A stretch of DNA of 55,310 bases from an uncultured Alphaproteobacteria bacterium (GTDB lineage Bacteria > Pseudomonadota > Alphaproteobacteria > CAAGCB01 > CAG-977), in the NCBI GenBank assembly GCA_944390195.1, contig CALXOZ010000014.1, positions 1 through 55,310 of the forward strand, read 5' to 3'. Position numbers and translations under genes: made by a program. The notes beneath the pieces were generated by a model, which did no database searches, had not been told where the DNA came from, and worked only from the letters and a program-made list of their open reading frames with translations. Below, piece after piece: positions 4,679 through 21,805 of this stretch. The first letter of the stretch is position 1, and every line of letters begins with the position of its first letter.

Positions 4679-6196
4679 TTAGTCGCGAGTGATGCGTCTG
4701 TAACGGTAAGAGAGGGCTTCGGAAATATGTAAAACGGATATATTGTCTTGAGCGCAAAGATCGGCAATCGTTCTGGCGACGCGTAAAACGCGGTGATAAC
4801 CGCGTGCGGATAAGTGCATTTTTTCCGCCGCTTTATTTAGAATGTCTTCGGCTTCACAGGACAATTTTACTGTTTGAGCTAGAATACTCGGTGTCGCCTG
4901 AGCGTTTTTTGTTATGTTTACTTGAGCTTTCTTGTATCGGTGTTTTTGACGATTCAAAGCTTCGCCGATGCGAATCGCGATACTTTGAGAACTTTCCCCT
5001 TCCTGAGCTTTTGCAAGATCCCACGGGGAAACAGCCGGAACTTCGATATAGATATCCATTCTGTCGAACAAAGGACCGGATATTTTGGATTGGTATTCTT
5101 CCGCGCATCTGGGAGCCCGTGAACATTCCTGCCCGTTGATTCCCAAATATCCGCACCGGCACGGATTCATCGCCGCAATCAGTTGAAAGCGGGCAGGGTA
5201 GGTTACATGCAAATTCGCTCTTGCTATGGAAACTTCACCGGTTTCCAAAGGTTGACGTAATGAATCCAGAGCGATTCTGGAAAACTCGGGCAGCTCGTCC
5301 AAGAACAATACACCGTTGTGAGCCAAAGAAATTTCACCGGGATTTGCTTTGTGCCCGCCTCCGATTAATGCCGGCATGGAAGCCGAATGATGTGGAGCGC
5401 GAAAGGGGCGTTGTGTTATCAAATTTCCATCGCGCAACAACCCTGCGACCGAATGGATCATGCTGATTTCCAGAATTTCTTGAGTGGTTAAAGGCGGCAA
5501 CAAGTCAGGAATGCAAGAAGCCAGCATGGATTTTCCAGACCCCGGCGGGCCGACCATCAACAAATTGTGTCCGCCCGCTGCGGCAATTTCTATGGCGCGT
5601 TTTGCATTTTCCTGTCCTTTGACCTCTTTTATATCTTTGACGACCGAAGGGCGGTCGATTTTTTTTAAAACAGGGGGAGGCAATATTTTCCCCTCTTTAA
5701 AACACAGGATTAACTCATAAAGGGAATCCGGAGCGATAATGTTTTTATTGCCAGACCATGCCGCTTCACTTCCTTGTGGTTTCGGACAGACGATTCCGAA
5801 ACCTTGGGCATTCGCGGACATGGCGGCGGGCAAAACGCCTGATATTGGTGCGATTCGACCGTCAAGTCCGAGTTCTCCGATCACACAAAGCTTTTCGAAG
5901 TGTTCAACAGGAACAATACCCATTGCGCACAATAAACCTACCGCAATGGGCAAATCGAAATGAGATCCTTCCTTGACAACATCCGCCGGAGCCAGATTGA
6001 CGGTGATTCTTTTTGACGGTAAAGATAACCCTACCGATCCCAATGCGGCACGCACACGTTCTTTACTTTCCCCGACGGCTTTATCCGGCAAGCCGACGAT
6101 TGTAAAAGAAGGCAAACCGTTAGCTATGTACACTTCCGCCACAATAGGAAGGACGTCTATCCCCTTGAATGCGACGGTCGGAATGCGGGCAAGCAT
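4679..6196 (-). CDS. comM: Mg-chelatase-like AAA+ ATPase (YifB/ComM)
   Basis: 505 residues, typical for ComM, the hexameric helicase that promotes branch migration during uptake and integration of DNA. N-terminal ChlI-like/Lon-like fold (GLPDKAVGESKERVRAAL near 35-52), Walker A GPPGSGKS (about 216-223), Walker B GVLFLDE (about 295-301), a cysteine cluster CRCGYLG...C...C around 350, and the C-terminal Mg_chelatase_C domain rich in LSARGYHRVLRVARTIADL-type sequence. Cytosolic. It heads a likely three-gene unit with the response regulator and kinase (11- and 12-bp gaps). No convincing Shine-Dalgarno precedes the start; the gap to the upstream lipoprotein gene is 10 bp, so coupling is possible. 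Confidence 0.95.
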   Translation of the reverse strand: MLARIPTVAFKGIDVLPIVAEVYIANGLPSFTIVGLPDKAVGESKERVRAALGSVGLSLPSKRITVNLAPADVVKEGSHFDLPIAVGLLCAMGIVPVEHFEKLCVIGELGLDGRIAPISGVLPAAMSANAQGFGIVCPKPQGSEAAWSGNKNIIAPDSLYELILCFKEGKILPPPVLKKIDRPSVVKDIKEVKGQENAKRAIEIAAAGGHNLLMVGPPGSGKSMLASCIPDLLPPLTTQEILEISMIHSVAGLLRDGNLITQRPFRAPHHSASMPALIGGGHKANPGEISLAHNGVLFLDELPEFSRIALDSLRQPLETGEVSIARANLHVTYPARFQLIAAMNPCRCGYLGINGQECSRAPRCAEEYQSKISGPLFDRMDIYIEVPAVSPWDLAKAQEGESSQSIAIRIGEALNRQKHRYKKAQVNITKNAQATPSILAQTVKLSCEAEDILNKAAEKMHLSARGYHRVLRVARTIADLCAQDNISVLHISEALSYRYRRITRD

Positions 6197-6206
6197 TTAA
6201 AACAAG

Positions 6207-6497
6207 CTACCAACGTGGAATATTCTGGTGTTCCCTGTAACGGCGGGGCGGGTATGCCCCTTTTTGCAACAAATCGTCTTTTCCAGGGAAAACGGACTTG
6301 TCCGTCAACCGGACAAAACCCAGTTTTTCCAATTCATCGGCACAGACAACGGCTGAAACGTATTGGTCTGATTCGCAATAAAAGACTTCGCGTGTAACGG
6401 GTTGTTGCATGATAATCGTGTCGTTTGTTCCGGGAACTATGACTTGCGTACAAGAACAAAGAACGGTAATCGTCAGGAAAAATAGCGTTTTTTTCAT
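6207..6497 (-). CDS. Small putative lipoprotein
   Basis: 96 residues from the ATG at 6497. N-terminus MKKTLFFLTITVLCSC is a short signal peptide ending in a lipobox-like LCSC, so a lipid-anchored envelope protein is likely. The mature part contains two further cysteines (FYCESD and VVCADELEKLGF) that could pair, and a basic, proline-containing end. A TTG 15 bases upstream would give a longer product but spoil the signal peptide. No family recognised. It lies 10 bp upstream of comM on the same strand. Confidence 0.65.
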   Translation of the reverse strand: MKKTLFFLTITVLCSCTQVIVPGTNDTIIMQQPVTREVFYCESDQYVSAVVCADELEKLGFVRLTDKSVFPGKDDLLQKGAYPPRRYREHQNIPRW

Positions 6498-6639
6498 GTT
6501 TGTTGACCACAATAATCGGAATTCAATTTAAAAATATTCTCATAAAAATTGATTAAAAGCAAACTAACATATAAGATCTTTTTATTTAAATCAAATTTGT
6601 TTTAATTTTATGTGCTGATGTTTCAGGAGGATTGTTCCC

Positions 6640-8106
6640 ATGTCTGAAAAGCTTAAAGACGCTCATGGTCGGGAAATTTTTTATAAAGCCTCTTCTTATG
6701 ACGAAATGTTCGATCAAGACGGATCTTTTTCGCGGGCGTATGCTTTGTATGGAAAATGGTTGAATTCTCAACCCGTGGAAGTTTTGGATCAAAGAAACAG
6801 GCAGGCGGATCTGTTATTTCGCCGTATGGGTATTACTTTTGCCGTTTATGGGGAACAAACGGGGGTGGAACGTCTGATTCCTTTTGATCCCATTCCCAGA
6901 ATTATTTCTTATGAAGAGTGGGAAAAATTGAATGCCGGCATTTGTCAGCGGGTGAAAGCCTTAAACTGTTTTTTAGAAGATGTTTACACAAAACGTGACA
7001 TTTTAAAGGCGGGGATTATTCCTCGAAATCTGGTTTTGAACAATTCGGAATATTGCAGGGAAGTTGAAAATTTCATCCCTCCGAATCGAATCCACACTCA
7101 TATTTCGGGAATAGATATTGTTCGTGTCGATCAGGATAACTTTTTTGTGCTGGAAGATAATATGCGTTGTCCTTCCGGTGTGTCTTATATGCTGGAAAAC
7201 CGCGAAGTCATGATGCGTTTATTTCCGGATTTATTCAAAAAATACGACGTATTGCCGATAAACCATTATCCTCAAGAGTTAAAAAAGACTCTGTTCTCTT
7301 CAGCTCCACAGGGGATAGAATCCCCTTGTGCCGTCGTCTTTACGCCGGGGATATACAACAGCGCTTATTTCGAACACGCTTTTCTGGCGTCCGAAATGGG
7401 GGTCGAGTTGGTTACGGGACAGGATTTATTCGTGGATTCGGACGATTGTGTCTATATGCGCACGATTGACGGACCGACAAAAGTCGATGTCATCTATCGT
7501 CGTATAGACGATCAATTTCTTGATCCAGAAGTTTTCAGAAAGGATTCTTTGTTAGGTTGTGCAGGGCTGTATCGTGCCGCTATGAAGAAAAACGTGACTT
7601 TGGTCAACGCGATCGGAAACGGTGTCGGTGATGATAAATCAGTTTATCCGTATGTGCCGCAGATGATAGAGTTCTACTTAGGCGAAAAGCCGATTTTATC
7701 AAATGTGCCGACTTATACGCTGGCAAAACCAGATGATTGCAAATATGTCTTGGAACATATCGGCGAGCTTGTGATTAAAGAAACGCACGGATCGGGCGGA
7801 TATGGTATGTTGATCGGACCCAAGGCAACAAAGAGCGAAATCGATCTGTTTAAAGAAAAAATCAAAGAGCATCCCGATCATTATATCGCTCAGCCGACTT
7901 TGGCGCTGTCGTCTTGTCCGACTTTGCAGGCGGAAGGGATCGCGCCGCGTCATGTCGATTTGCGTCCGTATGCTTTGATGCAAAATCCGGACAAAGTCGT
8001 TGTCGTTCCGGGGGCGTTGACGCGTGTGGCGTTGCGGGAAGGGTCTCTGGTCGTCAATTCATCTCAGGGCGGCGGAACAAAAGACACTTGGGTTCTTGGG
8101 GCTTAA
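6640..8106 (+). CDS. Circularly permuted type 2 ATP-grasp protein
   Basis: 488 residues, matching the circularly permuted ATP-grasp family (formerly DUF404/DUF407). Recognisable stretches are the N-terminal YDEMFDQDG, the central DNMRCPSGVSYMLENR, NAIGNGVGDDKSVYPY, and the ATP-binding KETHGSGGYGML with RHVDLRPYAL near the end. Family members are predicted peptide ligases; comparative work links them to alpha-E proteins and transglutaminases in a peptide synthesis or degradation system of unknown product. A strong CAGGAGGA site sits about 10 bases before the ATG. It is followed 78 bp later by the alpha-E gene on the same strand, the standard pair. The usual third partner (transglutaminase-like protease) is absent. 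Confidence 0.9.
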   Translation: MSEKLKDAHGREIFYKASSYDEMFDQDGSFSRAYALYGKWLNSQPVEVLDQRNRQADLLFRRMGITFAVYGEQTGVERLIPFDPIPRIISYEEWEKLNAGICQRVKALNCFLEDVYTKRDILKAGIIPRNLVLNNSEYCREVENFIPPNRIHTHISGIDIVRVDQDNFFVLEDNMRCPSGVSYMLENREVMMRLFPDLFKKYDVLPINHYPQELKKTLFSSAPQGIESPCAVVFTPGIYNSAYFEHAFLASEMGVELVTGQDLFVDSDDCVYMRTIDGPTKVDVIYRRIDDQFLDPEVFRKDSLLGCAGLYRAAMKKNVTLVNAIGNGVGDDKSVYPYVPQMIEFYLGEKPILSNVPTYTLAKPDDCKYVLEHIGELVIKETHGSGGYGMLIGPKATKSEIDLFKEKIKEHPDHYIAQPTLALSSCPTLQAEGIAPRHVDLRPYALMQNPDKVVVVPGALTRVALREGSLVVNSSQGGGTKDTWVLGA

Positions 8107-8184
8107 AAAAGTTTACGGTTGAAACGTTCGTTATAAGACAATGAAAAATATCCGGATTCGCAAGGCGTAAAAGGAGAGGAAACG

Positions 8185-9105
8185 ATGTTAAGCAGAACTG
8201 CCGATAATATTTACTGGATGGCGCGTATGGTTGAACGCGCTCAGGACATTGTGCGCTTGTTGGAAGCCGCGTATCGCATGGAACAACTGCCGGGCGGCGG
8301 TGTCGGTTGGGATCCAATCTTGACGATTTCGGGACAAATCGACGGCTTTAAAGCCAAATACGATCAACTGACGTCAAAAAATGTTTTGAACTTTATGATC
8401 TTTGATCTCGAAAATCCGTCCAGCGTCTTTTCTTGTATCAAAGCGACACGGGAAAACACGCGTTCCGAACGCAGTATTCTGCCCGAAGAAATGTTTGAAA
8501 GCATCAATACGACTTGGATCGAATTGCAGGGATTGTATTATGATTCGCTGGAACGAAGGGGGTTCCGCGAGTTTTTTGAATGGGTGAAAGACAGAACGGA
8601 ATTGTTTCGCGGACAGACTGTTTCCATGATGGTTTATGATGACGCTTTCCAGTTCGCCAGAATGGGAACGTATATTGAACGTGCCGATTTCACGGCGCGG
8701 CTTTTAGATGTGAAGTATCATATTCTATTGCCCCCGAATGCGACGGACAAAGGCTTGATCGATTATTATCAATGGGGCGAAATGTTGCGTTCGGTCGGCG
8801 GGTGGCACGCTTACCGCAGCATCTATAAAGAAGCGCCTGTTCCTTCTAAAATTGCCGAAATGCTGATTTTCAGTCCGGTCTTTCCGAGGTCGATGAACAG
8901 CGCTTACGGGGAAATCGTAACAAGTTTAAGTGCTTTGCGCGCCAATACGTTGTCTTTGAAAATCGCTTCTCAGGAACACGCTTTTCTTCATACGGGAACG
9001 TTGGCGGGAATCCTCAAAGAGCGCTCTTTGCACGACTTTTTAACCGACTTTGTCGGTTTTACGGCAAACTTGTCCGATCAAATCAGATCCGATTTCATGC
9101 TGTAA
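8185..9105 (+). CDS. Alpha-E domain protein
   Basis: 306 residues of mostly helical sequence beginning MLSRTADNIYWMARMVERAQ, the hallmark of the alpha-E family (formerly DUF403). The function is unknown; the family nearly always accompanies the circularly permuted ATP-grasp protein, as here, and is thought to work with it in a peptide-bond-forming pathway. Later signatures include FARMGTYIERADFTARLLDVKY and the C-terminal LSDQIRSDF. A GGAGAGGA site lies about 6 bases before the ATG. The gene ends 12 bp from the convergent restriction nuclease gene, so transcription of the pair runs against that unit. Confidence 0.9.
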   Translation: MLSRTADNIYWMARMVERAQDIVRLLEAAYRMEQLPGGGVGWDPILTISGQIDGFKAKYDQLTSKNVLNFMIFDLENPSSVFSCIKATRENTRSERSILPEEMFESINTTWIELQGLYYDSLERRGFREFFEWVKDRTELFRGQTVSMMVYDDAFQFARMGTYIERADFTARLLDVKYHILLPPNATDKGLIDYYQWGEMLRSVGGWHAYRSIYKEAPVPSKIAEMLIFSPVFPRSMNSAYGEIVTSLSALRANTLSLKIASQEHAFLHTGTLAGILKERSLHDFLTDFVGFTANLSDQIRSDFML

Positions 9106-9117
9106 AAAAGCGAAAAA

Positions 9118-9835
9118 TCAAGAACGCAATCCTTTCTGTTTGATTACTTGCAACAAATTTTGAGGAGAAACTTCATAACGTTTGAAGTCACAAATGTTAC
9201 TTTCTTTGATCCATAACTGACCTTCGCCGGTATTTCCTCGATGCTGTCCGGTAGAAAAATACGGATTTTCTGCAACTTCAATACTGGATAAAACCCAATA
9301 CCTGATTGAATCTCTCCATACGCCGATCCAAACAAAAACGTCGCAACATTTTGGTTTGATTTGTTGGAAATTCATGTCAAAACCAAACTTGGAATCGCTT
9401 GATAAGGCTTTAAAGATCAATGGATCTCCACTTTTCCTTTTGACGGCACGAGAAGCTTTTACTTCAATTCTTAGGCCGTCCAACCAAAAATCGTATTTGC
9501 CGGAATAATTCGGATCCAAATTTTTTGTCGGCTTTTTTAATGCGGGAACTTGTTCTTTAAGATGTTTTTGCGCCCATTGTTCTCCAAATGTCCGAGGTGC
9601 CGTTATTTCGAAAACGGATAGATATTTGTTTCTTTTTTCGTAGTCTCGTCGGAGTTGCAGGTATTCGTCTAATGTTGATGATGTTTTGCGATTAAATGGA
9701 CGAAAATATATTCAAAACGGTTGAACGGATATACGGCATAGACGTTTTTTATCGTTTCTTCCGATACATCTGTTGTCGGAGAAATTTGTTTTAAAAGGGA
9801 GAGCTTTTTTTGTAAATAGTTAATGAGCTTTTCCA
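9118..9835 (-). pseudogene. Type II restriction endonuclease, frameshifted
   Basis: Two minus-strand frames make one coherent protein. The first starts at an ATG at 9835 with a good site (CAGGAG) and encodes MEKLINYLQKK... to about YPFNRFEYIF near 9705. The second runs from RPFNRKTSSTLDEY (about 9700) to the stop at 9118. Adding one base to the A4 run at 9703-9706 joins them into about 239 residues. The C-terminal half holds a plausible PD-(D/E)XK core: KYDFWLDG followed by RIEVKAS. The start overlaps the end of the methyltransferase gene by 16 bases, the coupling seen in type II systems. As read, translation would stop after about 56 residues, so the nuclease is inactive unless the base is a sequencing error or slips. 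Confidence 0.7.
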
Positions 9836-11580
9836 TTTAAAAACTCCTGAATATAAAGGCGTTCATCTGGTGTGATCTTATAAAAATCATAAATAAAGTC
9901 CTGCAATTTTTGTGAATGAATTTGTTTGTTCTTAATTAAATCATTGACTTCTGTTTCTATAAATCGGTTTGTCTTTTCTGTTATTCGAGGAAAAGGCAGT
10001 TGCATAAGATTGCCTTTCAGAATTTTAATGTCTCCGAACGATTTCATATAAATAAACTGAAAAAGTTCTGCGTTTAAAAATCCTAAAACCGTTTTAATCG
10101 ACATATCGGGAATGGCGGGGATCAGGATATTTGCGCTGTTCAAGAATAAAGCTTTTGTATCATCGTAAGCAAAAACAGGCCTGTCGGAAATAAATTTATA
10201 AACCAATTTTTCCGTAGCTCTGTAGATTTCGTCTCTGGCCGTTTGTTGTAATTGTGTGTGATCATAATGTAAAAATTTTTTTGCGGGATTTAAAAAGTAA
10301 GGTTGAATTTCTTTGCCGGTATAAATCGGTTCCGCGTTTTTCCCGCAAGTGTCGGACAGTTTGTTTTTGTTATCTCCCGTCACGATCCCCAATCCCCAGA
10401 CGCTTTGAGATAAATCAAAAGCTTTTAAAGAAAAGGCTTTTTTCAATATCTGCTCGTCGCGTTGCGTTAACAGCGCAAAGATTTTATTTTTACTTTCTTT
10501 AACGGTATGAAGGGAAGAAAAATAAATCTCTTTTCCTGTTTGAACCAGATAAGAGTCCGCCGGCTGTTCGCATGAAGCATCCAAACTGATATAAGGGGTA
10601 ACAACTCCTGTAAATTCGGCCGGATAAACGGTGATTTTTTTAATACGATAATTGTTAATTAAAAATTCTCTGATGCCTTGATGAGTTTTCACATTGAGAA
10701 AAGACGCCGGCAATAAGAAGTTTAATTGTCCGCCGGAAATCAGTAAACAAAAACTCTTTTTTAGAAAAGCGGAAAAACTGTCACTATCTTTGTTTTGATC
10801 GGCTCCCCAAGGCGGATTGGTGATAATCAGATCAAAATGGCGTGTTCTGATCTGATGTTCTTCCTGATTTGCAAAAAGCTGATTTTCGCTTAAAAAGTCA
10901 AAACAGTATACATTCGGTAAAAAGTCTTGATCCTTAAAGTTTAAAATCATGTTGAATTTTGTAATCATAACGGCCAACGGATCTATATCAACGCCGAACA
11001 GACAGCTTGGATTGTGATCGCGAAATCCTGTTAAAAAAGCTCCGCTGCCGCAGCAAGGATCCAAAATCAAAGTGTCTTTTGATCCTGAAAAGCCATGAAC
11101 CATTTCTCGGACAATTTTTTCAGGTGTATAATAAGCACCTGTCCTGTTTTTTTCTCCTTCGCTGCGCAAACATTGATAAACCAGTCCTAATAGATCGTGT
11201 TCATTTTCGGGAAAAGGAAAATCATATATTTCCGTAATCGGTTGAAAGGCATATTCATCTATAAGAGAGGCAACATTTCTTTTGAGAGGAATGAAATCAT
11301 CATCAATTAAATTTGCTTGATGAAGCTGTCTTAATCCGACAGAAAACAATATTTGAGGAAGAGCGTATTTTTTTTGTTCAACCAATTCCGTAAGTCTTTC
11401 TAAAACAGGAATGTTTTTTAGATCCGAAAAATATTCGGACGGAATGATTTTTTTTGTGGAACGGGTTTTGTTTGCTCGTTTCGTCAGCTTATCTTCAATA
11501 GAACTGACGTTTAGTTTTTTCCAATTTCTTTTCGTTGCATTTGAAACGGGTGAAGACACTATAGATCCTATAGGCGACAT
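9820..11580 (-). CDS. N6-adenine DNA methyltransferase (type II, TaqI/Eco57I-like)
   Basis: 586 residues. Motif X-like TGAYYTPEKIV (about 147-157), SAM-binding motif I LDPCCGSGAF (about 173-182), an acidic GVDIDPLA (about 196-203), and catalytic motif IV NPPW (about 255-258), which marks an amino-methyltransferase acting on adenine. The C-terminal part (about 390-560) resembles the TaqI-type specificity domain (IYTGKEIQPYF; ILIPAIPD; FLNAELFQFIY). It modifies host DNA at the system's target site, which cannot be read from the sequence. The nuclease gene overlaps its end. No clear ribosome binding site precedes the ATG at 11580, so weak or late expression is possible. With the nuclease frameshifted this may now be an orphan methyltransferase. 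Confidence 0.88.
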   Translation of the reverse strand: MSPIGSIVSSPVSNATKRNWKKLNVSSIEDKLTKRANKTRSTKKIIPSEYFSDLKNIPVLERLTELVEQKKYALPQILFSVGLRQLHQANLIDDDFIPLKRNVASLIDEYAFQPITEIYDFPFPENEHDLLGLVYQCLRSEGEKNRTGAYYTPEKIVREMVHGFSGSKDTLILDPCCGSGAFLTGFRDHNPSCLFGVDIDPLAVMITKFNMILNFKDQDFLPNVYCFDFLSENQLFANQEEHQIRTRHFDLIITNPPWGADQNKDSDSFSAFLKKSFCLLISGGQLNFLLPASFLNVKTHQGIREFLINNYRIKKITVYPAEFTGVVTPYISLDASCEQPADSYLVQTGKEIYFSSLHTVKESKNKIFALLTQRDEQILKKAFSLKAFDLSQSVWGLGIVTGDNKNKLSDTCGKNAEPIYTGKEIQPYFLNPAKKFLHYDHTQLQQTARDEIYRATEKLVYKFISDRPVFAYDDTKALFLNSANILIPAIPDMSIKTVLGFLNAELFQFIYMKSFGDIKILKGNLMQLPFPRITEKTNRFIETEVNDLIKNKQIHSQKLQDFIYDFYKITPDERLYIQEFLNGKAH

Positions 11581-11619
11581 TAAAATTGCCGCTAGTATAT
11601 AAAACGAAAATTTTTTTAT

Positions 11620-11657
11620 AAAGAAAAAAGGTCGGAAAGTGCTGCCGACCTTTTTCC
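11620..11657 (-). terminator. Rho-independent terminator
   Basis: Stem GGTCGG (11630-11635) / CCGACC (11645-11650) with A run before and T run after, so usable in both directions. It follows the 211-residue unknown gene (11684-12316) on the minus strand. Confidence 0.8.
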
Positions 11658-11683
11658 CGTCATACTTCTTGGAGGAAGTTTAA

Positions 11684-12316
11684 TTAACGTGATTTTCCTT
11701 TTTGTAAAGCAATTTGACGCATCGCCAGTTGTTGTTCGATCTTGTCCATCGTTTTTGCGGACGGCTGCCAACCGAAACGGATACCGGTTGCTTGTTTGAT
11801 CTTTTCGATTCTTTTGATGACGGAAGTATTAATGGATCCCGTTCGCATATTATGTAAGTAAGCATTAATGTCATCAACATTGTATTGTGATGTGATGCCG
11901 ATCAATGTTCTGTATGTTTCGATCAGATTGTTTTTATTGTGATTTAGCCGTTTTAATTCGGGATTGAGTTTTGTTAATTCCTCGATTTCGTGATTGATTT
12001 CTTTGAGCGCTGCGGGCAGTTGATCTTTTAACGTTTCTCCCGCCTGCTTGCAGATCGGATCTTCTGATTTTAAAAAACCGGTAGCAATAGAATATTTTAA
12101 AAAACGTTTGCGGTATCCGTATTCGGCAAAAGCGGGTTCTTGTCCGTTGATGAATTGATAACGTCCCGCAATACCTTTCAGCCCCGTTTCATCTTCCATT
12201 TTGACCGCGTGAGCCGTATATCTGGGACGACCGTCAACCAGATATTTCCCCCTGCGGTTATAAGCGTTTTCCATATATTTTACGGCGTCTTGAATCGAAG
12301 AATATTTATCAGACAT
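11684..12316 (-). CDS. Conserved protein of unknown family, full-length copy
   Basis: 210 residues from the ATG at 12316 (AAAGGG about 9 bases before it); an upstream TTG is less likely. No signal peptide or membrane segment. The N-terminal 70 residues are basic with a striking stretch YLVDGRPRYTAHAVK followed by GLKGIAGRYQFINGQ; residues about 95-150 look like a coiled coil (LKEINHEIEELTKLNPEL); the C-terminus is helical and basic. I do not recognise the family. A second copy, nearly identical over the first 138 residues but cut short, lies at 13707-14150. Both stand downstream of mutY sequence, so this gene was probably the original neighbour of mutY before the duplication. Confidence 0.6.
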   Translation of the reverse strand: MSDKYSSIQDAVKYMENAYNRRGKYLVDGRPRYTAHAVKMEDETGLKGIAGRYQFINGQEPAFAEYGYRKRFLKYSIATGFLKSEDPICKQAGETLKDQLPAALKEINHEIEELTKLNPELKRLNHNKNNLIETYRTLIGITSQYNVDDINAYLHNMRTGSINTSVIKRIEKIKQATGIRFGWQPSAKTMDKIEQQLAMRQIALQKGKSR

Positions 12317-12620
12317 AATTGTTTGCCCTTTCAAACTTTTTTCAAAACATAAATCGAAAAGATTGAGCTGTCAAACTTTTTTTTTGCGTTATGACAAAGA
12401 GCTGTTTTTTTTCTTTTCGGCGGTTATTTTTTTTATGACTTTTTGCATCAAAGTCGAGAACGGATAGTTTTTGAACTCTGCCGGAAAAACAAAAAAACCG
12501 TCAAAGCCTTCGGGTAAAGAATCGACTTGCGTTTTAACGATGGTCAAAGTCAGATCGAAATGCGTAAAGATGTGTTTTACGGTTTTATCCGTGATGAGCC
12601 ATTGCGCTTCAAAAAAAAGA
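11884..12620. repeat. Direct repeat block, copy A (mutY 3' end + start of unknown gene)
   Basis: This block matches 13711-14575 in the same orientation: first the 5' 430 bases of the unknown gene, then a diverged spacer, then the last ~60 codons of mutY. The two blocks flank exactly the polyvalent-protein fragment at 12643-13710. Copy A lacks about 145 bp of spacer present in copy B, and the mutY part carries scattered substitutions, so the event is not very recent or the copies came from different strains. Confidence 0.8.
12389..12620 (-). pseudogene. mutY 3' fragment
   Basis: Minus-strand translation gives AQWLITDKTVKHIFTHFDLT and continues through KTQVDSLPEGFDGFF and KNYPFSTLMQKVIKK to a stop near 12389. 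This parallels the last ~65 residues of the intact MutY at 14363-15376 (ADWHMTRKTVKHIFTHF...). There is no start or catalytic domain. Substitutions are mostly conservative, suggesting it was under selection as part of a full gene before being cut. Confidence 0.85.
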
Positions 12621-12642
12621 AGCAGATCAGCGTTTAATCACA

Positions 12643-13710
12643 ATGTATAAACGTCCGAAAGAAAAAAACGCCGTTTATTCAAAGAAAAGAAAAATTCTGC
12701 TGGATGCGCAACAAAAAAGAAACGTTCCGACTGAACGGCAGGATTTTAAGTCCTCGACCGAACAGTCAACGTCAGGCGATTACTATTTCGTTCCTGACGG
12801 CGAACGCTTGAATAATAATATATCAATGAAAAAGTTTCCTGTCAATCTGAACGAAGCGGCTATGCCGGAATCGGGGATAATTGAAGACGTTGCAAAACTG
12901 AGCGTCTCTGTAAAAAAAATAAAAGATAAAATCGGTGTTCCTATTCGCATGGGTAAAGTGCGTGGCGGAAAAAATGTTTTGGGGCAGTATTATCCGAATG
13001 AAAAAATGATAAGGACGCGTTTCGCTAACGATATTGAAACCGTCACGCATGAAGCCGGACACCACATTGAAAACATCGTTTTCGGAGGGATCGGAAGCAA
13101 AAAAGCCATGCCGTTTTACAACGAATTAAGTGCAATTGCTACGAAGCCGAGAAAAAACACAAAAGCACTGAAAAACGCCGAGGGCGTCGCCGAGTTTATT
13201 TCGGCCTACGTCGTCAACCCCGAATTGGCAAAAGAAAAGTGTCCGAAATTCTTTGAAAAGTTTGAAATAAAAATGAAAGAAGAGTCGCCCGAATTGTTGG
13301 AAACGTTGCGCGAAAGCCAGACAATCGTCCGGCTTTGGGTTGAACAGCCGACCGTTGCCAGAGCAATGAGCCGGATCGCTTTCGACATTCAAAAACCGAA
13401 AATAACGTTGAAAGAAAAAGCCGCAAGGGCATATGACTGGTTTGCCGAAAACATCGCGGACGATTTGTATCAGGTCGGGAAAGTCAGCGAAAAACTGTCC
13501 GTCGATCCGGAAGATGCCAAAAGCCCGTATTTCAGAGCAAGAATGTTGCGCGGTCTGCCGGAAGCGAAAACAAAATACACTTTGACCGAAAGGCAAATTG
13601 ATTTTTATGGAAACGATATCGGCGAAAACCTGAAGGAAATTCTAAAGCCCATAAAGAGAAAATGGTTCGGGCTTAAAAAATGCGCTTTGGATATGCGTGA
13701 TAAGCGTTAA
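12643..13710 (+). CDS. Polyvalent-protein fragment with zincin-like metallopeptidase domain
   Basis: 355 residues. Residues about 90-150 contain a zinc protease motif THEAGHHIE (H136, E137, H140) and then EGVAEFISAYVVNPELA (about 177-195), whose glutamate would be the third ligand; this two-helix arrangement is typical of the metallopeptidase module in large polyvalent proteins of phages and conjugative elements. The C-terminal third (YDWFAENIADDLYQV and SPYFRARMLRG) resembles the helical region that follows in those giants. The usual polyvalent protein exceeds 1000 residues, so this is a piece. The frame stays open upstream to about 12598 and no ribosome binding site is seen, so the true start may be lost. 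It fills the space between two direct repeats and its stop overlaps the stop of the convergent truncated gene. Confidence 0.6.
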   Translation: MYKRPKEKNAVYSKKRKILLDAQQKRNVPTERQDFKSSTEQSTSGDYYFVPDGERLNNNISMKKFPVNLNEAAMPESGIIEDVAKLSVSVKKIKDKIGVPIRMGKVRGGKNVLGQYYPNEKMIRTRFANDIETVTHEAGHHIENIVFGGIGSKKAMPFYNELSAIATKPRKNTKALKNAEGVAEFISAYVVNPELAKEKCPKFFEKFEIKMKEESPELLETLRESQTIVRLWVEQPTVARAMSRIAFDIQKPKITLKEKAARAYDWFAENIADDLYQVGKVSEKLSVDPEDAKSPYFRARMLRGLPEAKTKYTLTERQIDFYGNDIGENLKEILKPIKRKWFGLKKCALDMRDKR

Positions 13711-14150
13711 CTATTGTTGTGTGATGTAATGGCGATCAATGTTCTGTATGTTTCGATCAGGTTGTTTTTATTGTGGTTTAACCGTCTCAATTCCGGATTG
13801 AATTTTATTAATTCCTCGATTTCGTGATTGATTTCTTTTAACCTAACGGGGAGCTGATCTTTCAACGTTTCATCCGCTTGCTGGCAGATCGGATCTTCTG
13901 ATTTTAAAAAACCGGTAGCAATGGAATATTTTAAAAAACGTTTGCGGTATCCGTATTCGGCAAAAGCGGGTTCTTGTCCGTTGATGAATTGATAACGTCC
14001 CGCAATACCTTTCAGCCCCGTTTTATCTTCCATCTTAACCGCGTGAGTCGTATATCTGGGACGACCGTCAACCAGATATTTTCCCCTGCGGTCATAAGCG
14101 TTTTCCATATGTTGTACAGCTTTTTGAACGGAAGCATATTGAGTTGTCAT
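13707..14150 (-). CDS. Truncated second copy of the unknown 210-residue protein
   Basis: 147 residues. Residues 1-138 are about nine-tenths identical by eye to the copy at 11684-12316 (YLVDGRPRYTTHAVK; RYQFINGQEPAFAEYGYRKR), then the sequence ends ITSHNNS where the other continues ITSQYNVDDINAYL. The last ~70 residues are missing because the repeat block ends here. It may still fold as an N-terminal domain, but it is better regarded as a truncated gene. It lies behind intact mutY on the minus strand. Confidence 0.6.
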   Translation of the reverse strand: MTTQYASVQKAVQHMENAYDRRGKYLVDGRPRYTTHAVKMEDKTGLKGIAGRYQFINGQEPAFAEYGYRKRFLKYSIATGFLKSEDPICQQADETLKDQLPVRLKEINHEIEELIKFNPELRRLNHNKNNLIETYRTLIAITSHNNS

Positions 14151-14575
14151 GATTGTTTGTTATTTCGAACTTTTTTGGTGAGAATAATAAAAAAGATTGA
14201 TCTGTCAAACATATTTTGAAAAGACGGTTTCATATTTCCGAAGCAGTGTGTTTTGTCGGGATGAAAAAGTCCGATGATACAGATCAGGCAAGCTGTTTAA
14301 GTGTAGAAAGTGAAGTTTTTTGGGAAAACGGTAAGAAAACGTTTGGCAAGATGGGGCAAGAATTATTTTTTTTCGTTAATAACTTTTTTTATGACTTTTT
14401 GCATCAAAGTCGAGAACGGATAGTTTTTAAAATTTTCCGGAGCTGTAAAAAAACCGTCAAAGCCTTCGGGTAAAGAATCGACTTGCGTTTTAACGATGGT
14501 CAAAGTCAGATCGAAATGGGTGAAAATATGTTTGACTGTTTTCCTTGTCATGTGCCAGTCGGCGGGGAAGGGAAA
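13711..14575. repeat. Direct repeat block, copy B
   Basis: Partner of 11884-12620. It holds the truncated unknown gene, about 145 bp of extra spacer (about 14219-14362) that copy A lacks, and the 3' end of the intact mutY. The boundary at about 13711 coincides with the end of the polyvalent-protein frame. Confidence 0.8.
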
Positions 14576-15376
14576 AGATTCATCCGTATTCCAAGGCAGT
14601 TCTGTCAGTCCCGACAGCAAGCCTTTTTCAGTGCGTTTACGGATTAAGACTTGAGCGCAGTTATTTTCAATCCAAAAAACATACCCTTTTTTAATTTCTT
14701 TTTTGAGTTTTGAAATATTCGGAATGCTTTCCGTTTCACCGGTTTTATAAGCGATACAGTCGTAATGAAGGGGGCAAAAAGTGCATAAGGGGGAGCGCGG
14801 CGTACAGATACCGGCTCCCAGATCCATCATGGCGGAAGCATGATCGGCGGGGCAAGAGGAAGCTTGTGTCAATTCTTCGGCAAAAGCGTTGATTTGATCC
14901 ATGATCGTTGCAACGGGGGCTTCCCAACCTTTTAACCGAGTCAAAACGCGAATAACGTTTCCATCAACGACGGCTTCGGGTAGGTTAAAGCCGAAAGAGG
15001 CGATCGCCGCCGATGTATAAGAACCTATTCCCGGCAATTTCATCAGTTCTTTTCTGTCGGAGGGAAAATGACCGTTATGTTTATTCATAACGACCTGAGC
15101 GCATTCATGTAATTTTCTTGCTCTCGTATAATATCCCAAACCCTGCCAAAGCAACAAAACGTCTTCAATCGGGGCTTTTGCCAGATCCGTTATTGTCGGG
15201 AAACGTTCTAAAAACCGTTTAAAATAAGGTAAAACGGTCTTAACGGTTGTTTGCTGTAACATGATTTCGGATATCCATACTTCATAAGGGTTCGGATGAG
15301 CCTTGCCTTTAACCCTCCAAGGCAGGTTCCGAGCGTTTTTTTCATACCATTTTGATAATTTTTCGGTTACAGTCAT
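14363..15376 (-). CDS. mutY: A/G-specific adenine glycosylase
   Basis: 337 residues. MutY removes adenine mispaired with 8-oxoguanine. Visible: catalytic glutamate in SEIMLQQT (about 36-43), helix-hairpin-helix LPGIGSYTSAAIA with the catalytic aspartate in AVVDGNVIRV, the 4Fe-4S ligands C-x6-C-x2-C-x5-C (CTPRSPLCTFCPLHYDC), and a NUDIX-like C-terminal domain that recognises 8-oxoG (GLLSGLTELPW). All key residues are present. The 3' portion is duplicated at 12389-12620. The gene is divergent from the cold-shock/DUF805 gene, sharing a 67-bp intergenic promoter region. Confidence 0.96.
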   Translation of the reverse strand: MTVTEKLSKWYEKNARNLPWRVKGKAHPNPYEVWISEIMLQQTTVKTVLPYFKRFLERFPTITDLAKAPIEDVLLLWQGLGYYTRARKLHECAQVVMNKHNGHFPSDRKELMKLPGIGSYTSAAIASFGFNLPEAVVDGNVIRVLTRLKGWEAPVATIMDQINAFAEELTQASSCPADHASAMMDLGAGICTPRSPLCTFCPLHYDCIAYKTGETESIPNISKLKKEIKKGYVFWIENNCAQVLIRKRTEKGLLSGLTELPWNTDESFPFPADWHMTRKTVKHIFTHFDLTLTIVKTQVDSLPEGFDGFFTAPENFKNYPFSTLMQKVIKKVINEKK

Positions 15377-16141: not shown

Positions 16142-16154
16142 AGTGAGGGTGGTT

Positions 16155-18818
16155 ATGGCTGAAATGAATGCGGTGAAAGAGCCGCAAGTGAAGTACTTGA
16201 AAGATTATAAGAAACCTGATTTTAAAATTGATTCGATCGATTTGATTTTTGATCTGGATGAAGATGATACGCAGGTTGTTTCGACATTGAAGATCTCGAG
16301 CGATTATGACCGTTCGTCAGGAGTACGGCCTTTGGTTTTGGATGGAAATCGTTTGACGTTCAAATATATCAAATTGAACGGTCGAGCCATGTCGCCCGAG
16401 GATTATGCTGTTACGGATCAATCGCTGACGGTCTTTAATCCGCCAGATGAATTTACGCTTGAAATCGGGACGCAAATTCATCCGAAAGCCAATACTCAAT
16501 TGGAAGGGTTGTATTATTCTAACGGCACTTTGTGCACGCAAAACGAACCAGAAGGATTTCGTTGCATCACATATTATTTGGATCACCCTGATGTCATGAG
16601 CAGTTTTACGACGACATTGATTGCGGATAAGAAAAAATATCCCATCTTGCTTTCAAACGGCAACCCGATCGAAACAAAAGATCTGGACAACGGCAAGCAT
16701 ATGGTCGTTTGGCGGGATCCGTTTAAAAAACCGTGTTATTTATTCGCTGTTGTCGCAGGGGATTTGGCTTCTTTGCATGACATTTTTACAACGAAATCCG
16801 GTCGAAAAGTGCAGTTGGGGATTTATGTCGAACACGGTTACGAAGATCAGGCTTCGTTTGCGTTGGAATCTTTAAAAAAAGCGATGAAATGGGATGAAGA
16901 TGTCTACGGGTTGGAATATGATCTGGATTTGTTCAACATTGTCGCTGTTTCCTACTTTAACATGGGGGCTATGGAAAACAAAGGGTTGAATATTTTTAAT
17001 ACTTCATGCGCTTTGGTTGATAAAAGGGTCGGAACGGATATTGACTTCGCTCATGTCGAAAGTGTCATTGCTCACGAATATTTTCATAATTGGTCTGGCG
17101 ATCGCGTTACGGCACGAGATTGGTTCAACTTGTCTTTAAAAGAAGGATTCACCGTATATCGGGATCAGGAATTTTCCCGTGATATGCACTCACGCGCTTT
17201 AAACCGCATCAACGATGTTTTTAATCTGCGCACATACCAATTTCCTGAAGATGCCGGTCCTCTGGCACATCCAGTTCGTCCTGAATCTTATTTAGAAATC
17301 AATAATTATTATACCGCGACGGTTTATGACAAAGGCGCGGAAGTCATTCGTATGTATGAAAAGCTTTTCGGCAAGGAAAACTTTTTAAAGGGATGTTCTT
17401 TGTATTTCGCCCGACATGACGGACAAGCCGTTACAATCGACGATTTCGCAAAATGTCAGGAAGATGCGAATCATACGGATTTAACTCAATTTAAACGTTG
17501 GTATTCTCAAGCGGGGACTCCTGTCGTCACCGCAAAAGCGGACTATGATGCTGAAGCGAAAAAGTATATCCTGACGTTGAAACAGGAAACAAAACCGACA
17601 CCGGGACAACCTGAAAAGTTGCCGTTTGTCATTCCTTTGGCTATCGGGTTGATTGGAAAAGACGGGCAAGACATACCGTTGCAATTGGAAAACGAAAGCA
17701 AAGCGGTCGGAACGACGCGTGTGTTGGTTTTAGACAAACCGGAACAGAAATTTGTTTTTGTCAATATTGCGCAAAAACCCGTTTTGTCGGCGAACCGCGA
17801 TTTCAGCGCTCCTATTCATTTTGTCATGGATTATTCCGACGAAGAACGCATCCATCAATCATGTTATGATTCCGATTTGTTCAACCGTTGGGATGCCTCG
17901 CAACAATATGCGGTCAAATTGATTCTGGAAATGATAAAAGAAGTTCAAAACGGCAAAAAAGAACCTGATGTGGATGAAAACTATATCAAATTATGGGGAG
18001 GGTATTTGACGGATAAAAATTCTGATCCGGCTTATATTGCCCGTTTGATCATGTTGCCTCAGGAAAATTATTTGGCGGACAAAATGGATGTTGTTGATGT
18101 GGACGCCATTCATAGTGTGCGTTCCCGTATGAAAAAAGTGTTGGCGGAACGCTATAAAAAAGAGTTGCTGGAAGTCTATCGTGAAAATGATATAAGCGAT
18201 AAGCCGTATCGTTTCTCGACAGAAGATGCCGGCAAGCGGTCTTTAAAAAATATGGCGCTGTCTTTTTTAGGCAGTCTTGAAATTGATGAAATCGATCAAA
18301 TAGTGCAACATCAGTATTTTAATGCGAATAACATGTCCGATCGATTGGCGGCATTGAATGTCTGTTCGAATTCAAAAGATCCGAAACGCGATGAAATTCT
18401 GGAAGATTTTTATCAAAGAAACAAACATGACACAGGTGTAGTGAACAAATGGCTGTTCTGTTGTGCTTGCGCTGACCGTCCGGATGCGGTTTCCGCCGTG
18501 CGCCGATTAATGGAACATCCGGCGTTTGAAATGACAAACCCGAATAAGTTACGTTCCGTGATGGGGGGCTTCGCTTATAATCAGCCGGAATTTCACAAGG
18601 CGGACGGATCCGGTTATGCTTTGGCAGCGGAAATGGCAATAAAAGTTGACGGGTTCAATCCTCAAATGGCTTGTCATATGATCCGTCCGATGATCAGGTG
18701 GAAACGCTTTGATCAAAAACGGCAAGAGCTTATGAAAGCCGCTTTGAAAAAAGTCATTCAAAAAGAAGGGATATCGAAAAACGTTTATGAACTGGTAACG
18801 AAGTCGTTGGCGGAATAA
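16155..18818 (+). CDS. pepN: M1-family aminopeptidase N, copy 1
   Basis: 887 residues from the ATG at 16155, which has GAGGGTGG just before it; an in-frame GTG at 16143 is less good. Cytosolic zinc aminopeptidase that removes N-terminal residues. All catalytic elements are seen: substrate-anchoring GAMENKGLN, zinc motif HEYFHNW (H307, E308, H311), the third ligand glutamate in SLKEGFTVYRDQEF, and the transition-state tyrosine in TVYDKGAEVIRMYE. C-terminal helical domain ends YELVTKSLAE. The length matches E. coli PepN. A paralogue follows directly downstream, separated by a terminator, so each is likely expressed on its own. Confidence 0.95.
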   Translation: MAEMNAVKEPQVKYLKDYKKPDFKIDSIDLIFDLDEDDTQVVSTLKISSDYDRSSGVRPLVLDGNRLTFKYIKLNGRAMSPEDYAVTDQSLTVFNPPDEFTLEIGTQIHPKANTQLEGLYYSNGTLCTQNEPEGFRCITYYLDHPDVMSSFTTTLIADKKKYPILLSNGNPIETKDLDNGKHMVVWRDPFKKPCYLFAVVAGDLASLHDIFTTKSGRKVQLGIYVEHGYEDQASFALESLKKAMKWDEDVYGLEYDLDLFNIVAVSYFNMGAMENKGLNIFNTSCALVDKRVGTDIDFAHVESVIAHEYFHNWSGDRVTARDWFNLSLKEGFTVYRDQEFSRDMHSRALNRINDVFNLRTYQFPEDAGPLAHPVRPESYLEINNYYTATVYDKGAEVIRMYEKLFGKENFLKGCSLYFARHDGQAVTIDDFAKCQEDANHTDLTQFKRWYSQAGTPVVTAKADYDAEAKKYILTLKQETKPTPGQPEKLPFVIPLAIGLIGKDGQDIPLQLENESKAVGTTRVLVLDKPEQKFVFVNIAQKPVLSANRDFSAPIHFVMDYSDEERIHQSCYDSDLFNRWDASQQYAVKLILEMIKEVQNGKKEPDVDENYIKLWGGYLTDKNSDPAYIARLIMLPQENYLADKMDVVDVDAIHSVRSRMKKVLAERYKKELLEVYRENDISDKPYRFSTEDAGKRSLKNMALSFLGSLEIDEIDQIVQHQYFNANNMSDRLAALNVCSNSKDPKRDEILEDFYQRNKHDTGVVNKWLFCCACADRPDAVSAVRRLMEHPAFEMTNPNKLRSVMGGFAYNQPEFHKADGSGYALAAEMAIKVDGFNPQMACHMIRPMIRWKRFDQKRQELMKAALKKVIQKEGISKNVYELVTKSLAE

Positions 18819-18835
18819 TTGATGTAAAAGCAAAA

Positions 18836-18877
18836 TGACGCTGTTTTCTTTTTTTCGGAAAACAGCGTTTTTTTTTC
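18836..18877 (+). terminator. Rho-independent terminator after pepN copy 1
   Basis: Long stem ACGCTGTTTTC (18838-18848) / GAAAACAGCGT (18858-18868) followed by a run of nine T. It separates the two aminopeptidase genes. Confidence 0.88.
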
Positions 18878-18952
18878 TTGTTTTAGACAAAAAATATGAG
18901 TAACATTGACAAGATTTAGACAACTTTCAGACCTTTTACAGGGGGAAAATCA

Positions 18953-21805
18953 ATGTCGGAAAATAAGCCGAACGTCAAATATTTAAAAGATTATAAAAAA
19001 CCGGATTACAAAATAGAATCCGTTCATTTGGATTTTGATTTGGATGAAGAAAATACACAAGTCGCATCAACTTTGAAAATCAAAAGCGATTATGATGCGG
19101 CAAGCGGTGAAGTACGTCCGTTGCATTTGGACGGCGACGAATTGACTTTGACATCTATAGCCATTGACGGTCGCCCCTTGAAACCGGAAGAATATGTTGT
19201 TGATGACAAGGGTTTGACGATATTAAATCCTCCGAAAGAATTTGAACTTTCCATCGGTACGGAAATACACCCGAAAGCGAATACGAAGCTGGAAGGTTTG
19301 TATGTTTCAAACGGAATGTTTTGCACCCAGTGCGAACCGGAAGGTTTTCGCCGTATCACCTATTATTTGGATCATCCGGATGTTACCAGCGTGTTTACAA
19401 CAACTTTACGGGCGGATAAGGAAAAATTGCCGTGTCTTCTTTCCAACGGCAACTTGATCAAAGAAGAAAAAATGCCCGACGGAAGAACGGCGGTAACATG
19501 GAACGACCCGTTCCCGAAACCGTCTTATTTGTTTGCTTTGGTCGGCGGGGATTTGGATTATATCCATGACAAATTTACAACCATGTCCGGTCGGGAAGTA
19601 ACATTGGGTGTGTATGCGAACAAAGGTCAGAAAGACAAGTTGGGATATACGATGGAATCCATCAAGCGTTCGATGGCTTGGGACGAAAAGGTGTTCGGTC
19701 GTGAATACGACTTGGATCTGTTCAATTTGGTCGCTGTTTCCGATTTCAACCAAGGCGCAATGGAAAACAAAGGGTTGAACATATTCAACAGCGCCTATGT
19801 CATAGCCGATGCCAATACGGCGACGGATTCGGATTATGCGGGGATCGAAGGCGTTGTCGGTCATGAATACTTTCATAACTGGTCTGGAAACCGCGTTACG
19901 GTGCGGGATTGGTTTAACTTGTCTTTAAAAGAAGGGTTGACCGTATACCGTGATCAGGAATTTTCACGCGATATGCGTTCACGTTCAGTTAATCGTATAG
20001 ATGATGTTTCAGGCTTGCGTGCCGGTCAGTTTGCAGAGGACGCCGGTCCGACCGCTCATGCCGTCCGTCCGGAATCATATGTCGAGATCAATAATTTCTA
20101 TACATCGACAATTTATGACAAAGGTGCCGAAATCGTTCGTATGTATGAAAAAATGCTCGGTAAGGAAAAATTCCGCCAAGCTAACGATCTTCATTTTTCC
20201 CGTAATGACGGGAAATCGGTAACGATTGACGATTACGCGAAATGTATGGAAGATGTCAGCGGAAAGGATTTGACGCAATTCAAACGTTGGTATTCTCAAG
20301 CCGGAACGCCGTCTGTGTTTGCAGAAGGGGTTTATGACGAAAAGAATCAGACCTACACCTTAAAATTGAAACAAGTAACAAAACCGACACCGGGACAGGA
20401 TACGAAGTTACCGTTTGTCATTCCTATGGAAATGGGTTTGTTGGGCAAGGACGGTAAAGATATGCCGTTGCAGTTGGCAGGTGAAAAAGAGGCTCAAGGA
20501 ACATCGCGTGTGATGATTTTGGACAAGGATGAAGCCGTTTTCACTTTTGTTAACGTGAAAGAAAAACCTGTCTTGTCGGCGAACCGCGATTTCACAGCGC
20601 CGATTAACTTTTATATGGATTATACGGATGCCGAACGTGCTCATTTGATGGCGCACGATTCCGATCTGTTCAACCGTTGGGATGCAGCACAGCAGTACGG
20701 TGTCCAGAAAATGATTGGTATGGTCAAGGATATCCAAGCCGGTAAAGAACCTAAAGTAGATGAAGGTTATTTGAATGCTTTAGGGTCTTATTTAAAGGAT
20801 CCGGATCTGGATAAGGCTTTTGTTGCAAAAGCTTTGGATTTACCCAGTGAAAAATATATCGCCGATCAGATGGATGTTGTCGATGTTGACGCGATTGCCA
20901 AAGCGCGGAAAATGGTTTCCGATGCTTTTGTTCAACGCTTTGAAAAAGATTTGGTTCGCGTCTATGATTCTCTGAATGTCGAAAAACCGTTTGAACCGGT
21001 TGCCAAAGATGCCGGTGAACGGGCTTTGAAAAATAAGGCGTTGGCTTATTTGGCATCGACTGAAAAACCGGAACATATGGATCGTGTGACGAATCAGTAT
21101 GAAAAAGCCAACAATATGACAGATCGTTTTGCCGCATTGAATGTTGCCGCGAATATGCCTTCCGGTAAACCTGTTGTGGACGACTTTTACAAGCGTTTCA
21201 AACACGAAGAACTGGTCGTCAACAAATGGTTGGGAGTCGTTGCTGCGGAAGGATTGGAAAGCGCGAAATCGGCTGTTGACCATGAAGCGTTTTCAATTAC
21301 GAATCCAAATAAAGTGCGTGCTGTTATGCGGCGTTTTGCTGGAAACCAGACCGCTTTTCATGCAAAAGATGGTTCCGGATATGAGTTTGTTGCCGATATG
21401 GCGCTCAAGTTGGACGGTATTAATCCTTTGGTCGCAGCCGATACGGTCAAGCCTTTGACATCGTGGCGGCGTTTTGATCCGCAACGTCAGGCGTTGATGA
21501 AAGCGGCTCTTGAAAAAGTGATGGCGAAACCGGGATTGTCGAAAAATGTTTATGAAGTCGTTTCAAAGTCTTTGGAACAAGCGGATTCGAAAAAATCAAA
21601 GATATTGGAAAATAAAGCGAAAATGCAGAAAAGAGTCAAGACAGACGCCTTTTTGAAAAAACAACCGTTGAAAGTCTTTGTTTCCGGAGCCCGTAAAACA
21701 AACGAACCTCAATATGTTTCGGCTTTGACAGGCAAAAAAACGAAAAACGTTCCGGCACAAATCAATAAAAATTTGCTTGTGCAACATAAAAGCCAAGGGC
21801 GTTAA
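18953..21805 (+). CDS. pepN: M1-family aminopeptidase N, copy 2 with C-terminal extension
   Basis: 950 residues; ATG after an AGGGGG stretch. It is colinear with copy 1 through the whole M1 fold: GAMENKGLN, HEYFHNW (H304, E305, H308), SLKEGLTVYRDQEF and TIYDKGAEIVRMYE are intact, so it should be active. It differs by an extra ~65 residues after SKSLEQ, strongly basic (many K, with VSGARKTNEPQYVSAL and GKKTKNVPAQ), which copy 1 and PepN generally lack; this could mediate localisation or nucleic-acid or envelope contact. The two genes clearly arose by tandem duplication and have since diverged; whether specificity differs cannot be told. Own terminator downstream. Confidence 0.94.
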   Translation: MSENKPNVKYLKDYKKPDYKIESVHLDFDLDEENTQVASTLKIKSDYDAASGEVRPLHLDGDELTLTSIAIDGRPLKPEEYVVDDKGLTILNPPKEFELSIGTEIHPKANTKLEGLYVSNGMFCTQCEPEGFRRITYYLDHPDVTSVFTTTLRADKEKLPCLLSNGNLIKEEKMPDGRTAVTWNDPFPKPSYLFALVGGDLDYIHDKFTTMSGREVTLGVYANKGQKDKLGYTMESIKRSMAWDEKVFGREYDLDLFNLVAVSDFNQGAMENKGLNIFNSAYVIADANTATDSDYAGIEGVVGHEYFHNWSGNRVTVRDWFNLSLKEGLTVYRDQEFSRDMRSRSVNRIDDVSGLRAGQFAEDAGPTAHAVRPESYVEINNFYTSTIYDKGAEIVRMYEKMLGKEKFRQANDLHFSRNDGKSVTIDDYAKCMEDVSGKDLTQFKRWYSQAGTPSVFAEGVYDEKNQTYTLKLKQVTKPTPGQDTKLPFVIPMEMGLLGKDGKDMPLQLAGEKEAQGTSRVMILDKDEAVFTFVNVKEKPVLSANRDFTAPINFYMDYTDAERAHLMAHDSDLFNRWDAAQQYGVQKMIGMVKDIQAGKEPKVDEGYLNALGSYLKDPDLDKAFVAKALDLPSEKYIADQMDVVDVDAIAKARKMVSDAFVQRFEKDLVRVYDSLNVEKPFEPVAKDAGERALKNKALAYLASTEKPEHMDRVTNQYEKANNMTDRFAALNVAANMPSGKPVVDDFYKRFKHEELVVNKWLGVVAAEGLESAKSAVDHEAFSITNPNKVRAVMRRFAGNQTAFHAKDGSGYEFVADMALKLDGINPLVAADTVKPLTSWRRFDPQRQALMKAALEKVMAKPGLSKNVYEVVSKSLEQADSKKSKILENKAKMQKRVKTDAFLKKQPLKVFVSGARKTNEPQYVSALTGKKTKNVPAQINKNLLVQHKSQGR

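Follow-up and report, generated by a model that had tools for sequence, protein, structure and literature searches.

Background

Homology-facilitated illegitimate recombination is known from Streptococcus pneumoniae, Acinetobacter baylyi, Pseudomonas stutzeri and Escherichia coli (PMC3240628), and its joints feature microhomology of 3-10 bp. The locus analyzed here resembles it in holding about 1 kb of foreign DNA with homology at one end and an illegitimate joint at the other, but its homologous end has left a duplicated block. Campbell-type single-crossover integration places foreign DNA between direct repeats of the target, with native outer flanks. The locus resembles it in the direct repeats of the homologous target that flank the insert and in the completeness of one copy of each flanking gene; it differs in that the inferred circle would be only ~1.9 kb long, with no replicon or element gene. 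The third comparison is with the polyvalent proteins, in which a zincin-like metallopeptidase is the commonest domain and LPD38 occurs only in the phage type (PMC5512222). What the insert shares with an LPD38-bearing member is the HExxH region, to which it aligns; it comprises ~370 of ~1600 residues, with LPD38 and the gene ends absent.

Here we analyzed a locus of an uncultured gut alphaproteobacterium in which two copies of a mutY-X stretch lie around a piece of a phage gene. The structure is probably a recombination scar, left when a related lineage recently contributed a chimeric fragment through homologous together with illegitimate recombination, and not a mobile element.

Organization of the locus

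The window, that is the whole stretch of 55,310 nucleotides that was analyzed, is one entire contig of a 2.1-Mb assembly of 38 contigs with 1% contamination. Its relevant features are as follows; G002, G003, G004 and G005 are four congeners, and X denotes a gene of unknown function.

14363-15376, minus strand: mutY, complete, 337 aa, with the Pfam domains HhH-GPD and NUDIX_4; 76-84% amino-acid identity to the orthologues of G002, G003, G004 and G005
13711-14570, minus strand: inner repeat block B, holding the mutY 3' end, a long intergenic part and the first 147 codons of X
13707-14150, minus strand: X', a cut copy of X of 147 codons, ended by the phage fragment; open frame, 85% amino-acid identity to X
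12608-13710, plus strand: fragment of a phage polyvalent protein gene (ORF 12643-13710) with a HEAGHH zincin-like region; both gene ends absent
12389-12607, minus strand: mutY 3'-end fragment, 71 codons and stop, in frame, of a G004-like allele; its homology ends at 12607
11879-12607, minus strand: outer repeat block A
11684-12334, minus strand: X, complete, 210-216 aa, likely ATG at 12316
12051-12188, minus strand: near-identical A/B tract with 1 mismatch in 138 nt, paired with 13885-14022
12491-12562, minus strand: identical tract of the two mutY ends, 72 nt
9118-11580, minus strand: type II restriction-modification genes (methylase 9820-11580, endonuclease part 9118-9519), variable cargo

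Read along the minus strand, the order is thus mutY, X', the phage fragment (itself on the plus strand), the mutY tail and the intact X. Despite the insert, mutY and X are each retained as one complete copy, and the phage fragment is probably without function.

An earlier note on this DNA had described two direct repeats, each holding the 3' end of mutY and the start of an unknown gene. Two families of direct repeats do lie there, 11879-12178 with 13713-14012 (91%) and 12407-12601 with 14363-14557 (85%), and the details were revised. The outer block was said to run to 12620; the repeat is real, and mutY homology stops at 12607, a single G004 match covering 11620-12607. The start of the unknown gene describes the inner copy, where X is cut to 147 codons, and not the outer one, where X is intact; conversely, the mutY 3' end alone describes the outer block with its 71-codon tail and not the inner copy, where mutY is complete. 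Each block also consists of two homologous parts and is not one continuous repeat, the intergenic parts being unalignable and the inner one more than 100 nt longer.

The locus in related genomes

One genome per species was sampled. The plain order GT - cargo - X - mutY, with a single X and no insert, was found in all four congeners. The cargo varies: a type II methylase in G002, a methylase with the endonuclease part in the window genome, an acetyltransferase-like gene in G003 and G005, and nothing between GT and X in G004, where no methylase was found in the stretches read. In G001 other genes form the cargo and X is located elsewhere. The endonuclease gene of the window (9118-9820, minus strand), read from its listed start, aligns with its family over the C-terminal half alone (profile positions 112-239 of 244); its frame continues upstream without an ATG, which may reflect a truncation or a rare start codon. 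At 16143-21805 lie two aminopeptidase N-like genes in tandem, which the congeners retain as well.

X is present in 10 of the 12 genomes of the family and in 0 of 49 others of the class. Its structural model is confident and helical (pLDDT 90.5), with no match in PDB. A Tus-like terminus-binding protein was considered and rejected, since the Pfam hit (E=0.008) misses the cut-off and no PDB fold matches.

Compared with G004, 6640-9105, X and mutY have a synonymous divergence (dS) of 0.39-0.92, and most other genes of the window one from 1.0 to saturated. This unusually low dS suggests that the GT-X-mutY interval has been exchanged with a G004-like lineage, and such an exchange would fit the import of homologous DNA.

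Divergence and mosaicism of the repeat blocks

Over 684 reliably aligned sites the blocks A and B show 89 differences (87% identity), and the similarity is distributed unevenly. The values of dS between them are 0.25 at the X start, 0.07 in the near-identical tract, 0.48 at the X end and 0.37 at the mutY end. None of 20,000 shuffles produced identical runs of 100 and 72 nt, and with the test confined to polymorphic sites the longest run of A=B has p=0.00025; these tests on runs of identity were devised after looking at the data. With G004 as reference, the mutY ends show 2 private changes in the non-functional tail against 23 in the functional copy (p=2e-5). The tail has thus changed less than the working mutY, which is the opposite of decay after duplication. 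The C-termini differ in kind as well, the outer tail sharing the extension of G004 and the complete inner mutY ending like G002.

The main alternative to import is a tandem duplication within one genome, with the phage scrap as filler at the new joint (through break repair or template switching), followed by divergence and patchy gene conversion. It has the merit that a single event gives the geometry. It also agrees with the segment trees, in which A and B group together over the X mid and X end parts, and with the tree tests, in which A and B as sisters are not rejected in the left half (p-AU 0.35) and are favoured in the right half (0.94); the segment quartet trees for the native copy have segments too short to discriminate. 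X' has a raised dN relative to X, a relaxed constraint that a duplication would explain, and this excess of non-synonymous change indicates that some time has elapsed since the event. A simple tandem duplication should, however, give uniform similarity and faster change in the non-functional copy, where mosaic identity and reversed rates at the mutY end were found. The hardly changed tail beside a functional copy that differs at 23 sites speaks against it, and the long intergenic difference and the unlike mutY C-termini would have to be added as further events. The phage frame and X' are moreover both still open; in a neutral simulation 7.5% substitutions left both open in 1.4% of runs, which makes them improbable after neutral drift of such size. 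The earlier note had proposed the alignment of the blocks as a way of dating the event, and that alignment proves too divergent and too uneven for plain duplication followed by drift. An old simple duplication with drift would therefore fit badly, and the fuller version with gene conversion is regarded as unlikely. From their sequences, A and B look like two alleles from related but different lineages, with crossover or conversion tracts.

Nature of the phage-gene insert

The ORF of the insert encodes 355 aa (12643-13710), or 370 aa when read from the junction, and the frame is open from 12598. No match was obtained in Pfam, PHROG or PADLOC. Of 61 genomes, G010, from another genus of the same family, is the only one with a relative (46-47% identity). 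There a stretch of 280 aa of the insert aligns at 46% identity with residues ~526-802 of a protein of 1587 aa that carries LPD3 and LPD38 domains. That protein is encoded by a prophage of podovirus type, which also has a head-tail connector and a reverse transcriptase. The latter (RVT_1) adjoins a 931-aa tail-fibre-like gene (L023, 13428-17695), as in diversity-generating retroelements.

A search of genome contigs returned one match to the insert, in a horse-faeces alphaproteobacterium MAG which is the G010 genome itself. A single-protein scan of IMG/VR gave no match; alignment-based scans found 3 and then 12 distant relatives, three contigs of which reach 34-35% identity. In the phage collection the matches are ~26% at best, mostly Vibrio podophages and also podophages of Thalassomonas and Shewanella. 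No phage source closer than the G010 prophage was thus found in the 61 genomes, IMG/VR or the phage collection.

The conserved part is a zincin-like region, with HEAGHH at residues 136-141 of the insert and HEVGHH in the G010 protein; HEAGH is common to the IMG/VR relatives, and the Glu of a downstream EGxAEF is invariant. The insert therefore has the zincin-like HExxH metallopeptidase region of polyvalent proteins. The fusion of LPD or other domains in one large protein is not seen in it, as it is the metallopeptidase part only and LPD38 sits elsewhere in the G010 protein, outside the matching region. Judged from these alignments, the ~1.1 kb of the insert come from the interior of a single phage gene, with both ends inside that gene. 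That a single fragment of a phage-type polyvalent protein lies between the repeats, as the earlier note had recognized, is borne out by its homology to an LPD38-bearing phage protein.

The earlier note had gone further and taken the pattern as the trace of a circular element that integrated by homology at mutY and then lost most of its DNA. Spelled out, this model has a circular phage, plasmid or ICE with mutY-X homology enter by one crossover, with a later deletion of all but 1.1 kb. Direct repeats around foreign DNA, with a piece of a phage-type protein between them, are indeed the Campbell pattern, and recombination with foreign DNA by homology is upheld in so far as the flanking repeats look like its product. 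A mobile element or prophage remnant would be marked by an integrase or recombinase, by att sites or by at least two element genes. Here 12608-13710 is taken up entirely by one partial phage gene, and the blocks enclose neither an integrase nor an att site, nor any replication, transfer or second phage gene. The deletion would also have to end exactly at both repeat borders, which is an extra event. The four congeners are without the insert, and the G010 prophage stretch read (L023) is without mutY homology. The fragment has no second copy in the rest of the genome, and integration of a larger circular element followed by loss of most of it is accordingly considered improbable, more so than duplication.

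The resident prophage (contig C8) was examined as source of the fragment and rejected, as nothing elsewhere in the genome matches the fragment. A second podovirus-type prophage occurs in G000 (L049, C8:72001-92000) and in G002 (L055, C60); its LPD38 protein of ~1930-2000 aa is unrelated in sequence to the insert.

A probable import and its proposed course

For the import of a chimeric fragment, which we prefer, the following course is proposed. DNA in which a mutY-X stretch of a related lineage was joined to a ~1.1-kb phage-gene piece would have entered the cell, the imported stretch differing from the resident one by a dS of ~0.25-0.5 outside the identical tracts. The chimera would have recombined with the chromosome through mutY-X homology by a RecA-type exchange, and the phage piece would have been joined illegitimately within the other mutY copy. 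This would leave mutY and X each with one complete copy, next to a truncated X and a mutY tail, and the near-identical tracts may mark the crossover site or later gene conversion between the copies. In one version, a circle of ~1.9 kb (block and phage piece) would have integrated by one crossover within the block, in the Campbell manner; in the other, a linear fragment would have had homology at one end and been joined illegitimately at the other. The two versions account for the geometry equally well, and every import model would require one homologous exchange and two illegitimate joints. A donor genome with the chimeric junction was looked for and none was found.

An assembly chimera, in which the alleles of two strains and a phage contig were joined by the assembler, might be suspected from the fragmented assembly (38 contigs, 1% contamination) and from shared near-identical tracts of 72-138 nt, which might lead an assembler astray, but it is very unlikely, as the phage joints to mutY and X' fall outside the repeat tracts, no such phage contig exists elsewhere in the assembly and the GC content hardly differs between the insert (43%) and the window (41%).

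The event is of an ordinary kind, and by itself the locus is of small importance. It is a well-resolved case in which a phage-gene scrap separates two divergent alleles set next to each other, within a part of the chromosome where cargo is exchanged among congeners. It also warns against taking repeats around a phage fragment as proof of an integrated element.

A conserved podovirus-type structural cluster

A structural cluster of podovirus (T7) type was observed at 6038-14637, minus strand, of L047 (G000:C8:22001-42000), with homologous stretches in L050-L054, L056 and L057. It contains a lysozyme, a gp14-like protein, two tail proteins, a major capsid protein (PF19821), a 239-aa protein, a portal protein (PF12236) and a DUF6782 metallopeptidase. 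Eight genomes of the family (G000, G001, G002, G004, G005, G006, G007 and G011) have it at one and the same chromosomal position, adjoining tgt and the ATP synthase genes. The capsid and tail genes that were scored show dN of 0.08-0.23 and dS from 1.5 to saturated, like the neighbouring tgt and atpB. Terminase_6N has no match in any of the 12 family genomes.

On these gene comparisons the cluster is a candidate domesticated particle or podovirus-type gene transfer agent. FpGTA of Faecalibacterium has been described as the first GTA-like element with podovirus morphology (PMC12946183). It is conceivable, with a very low probability that we place slightly below that of an assembly chimera, that particles of the tgt-adjacent cluster package cell DNA, repeatedly exchange the GT-X-mutY interval among species, now and then with a scrap of a phage gene attached, and so delivered the chimeric donor DNA. 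If confirmed, a conserved podovirus-type cluster in gut Alphaproteobacteria would matter more than the scar. Homologues of its capsid protein (29-50% identity), which may belong to prophages or reflect a wider conservation, occur in 27 sampled genomes of the class outside the family, for example L062-L067, and several species of one genus (g40) are positive.
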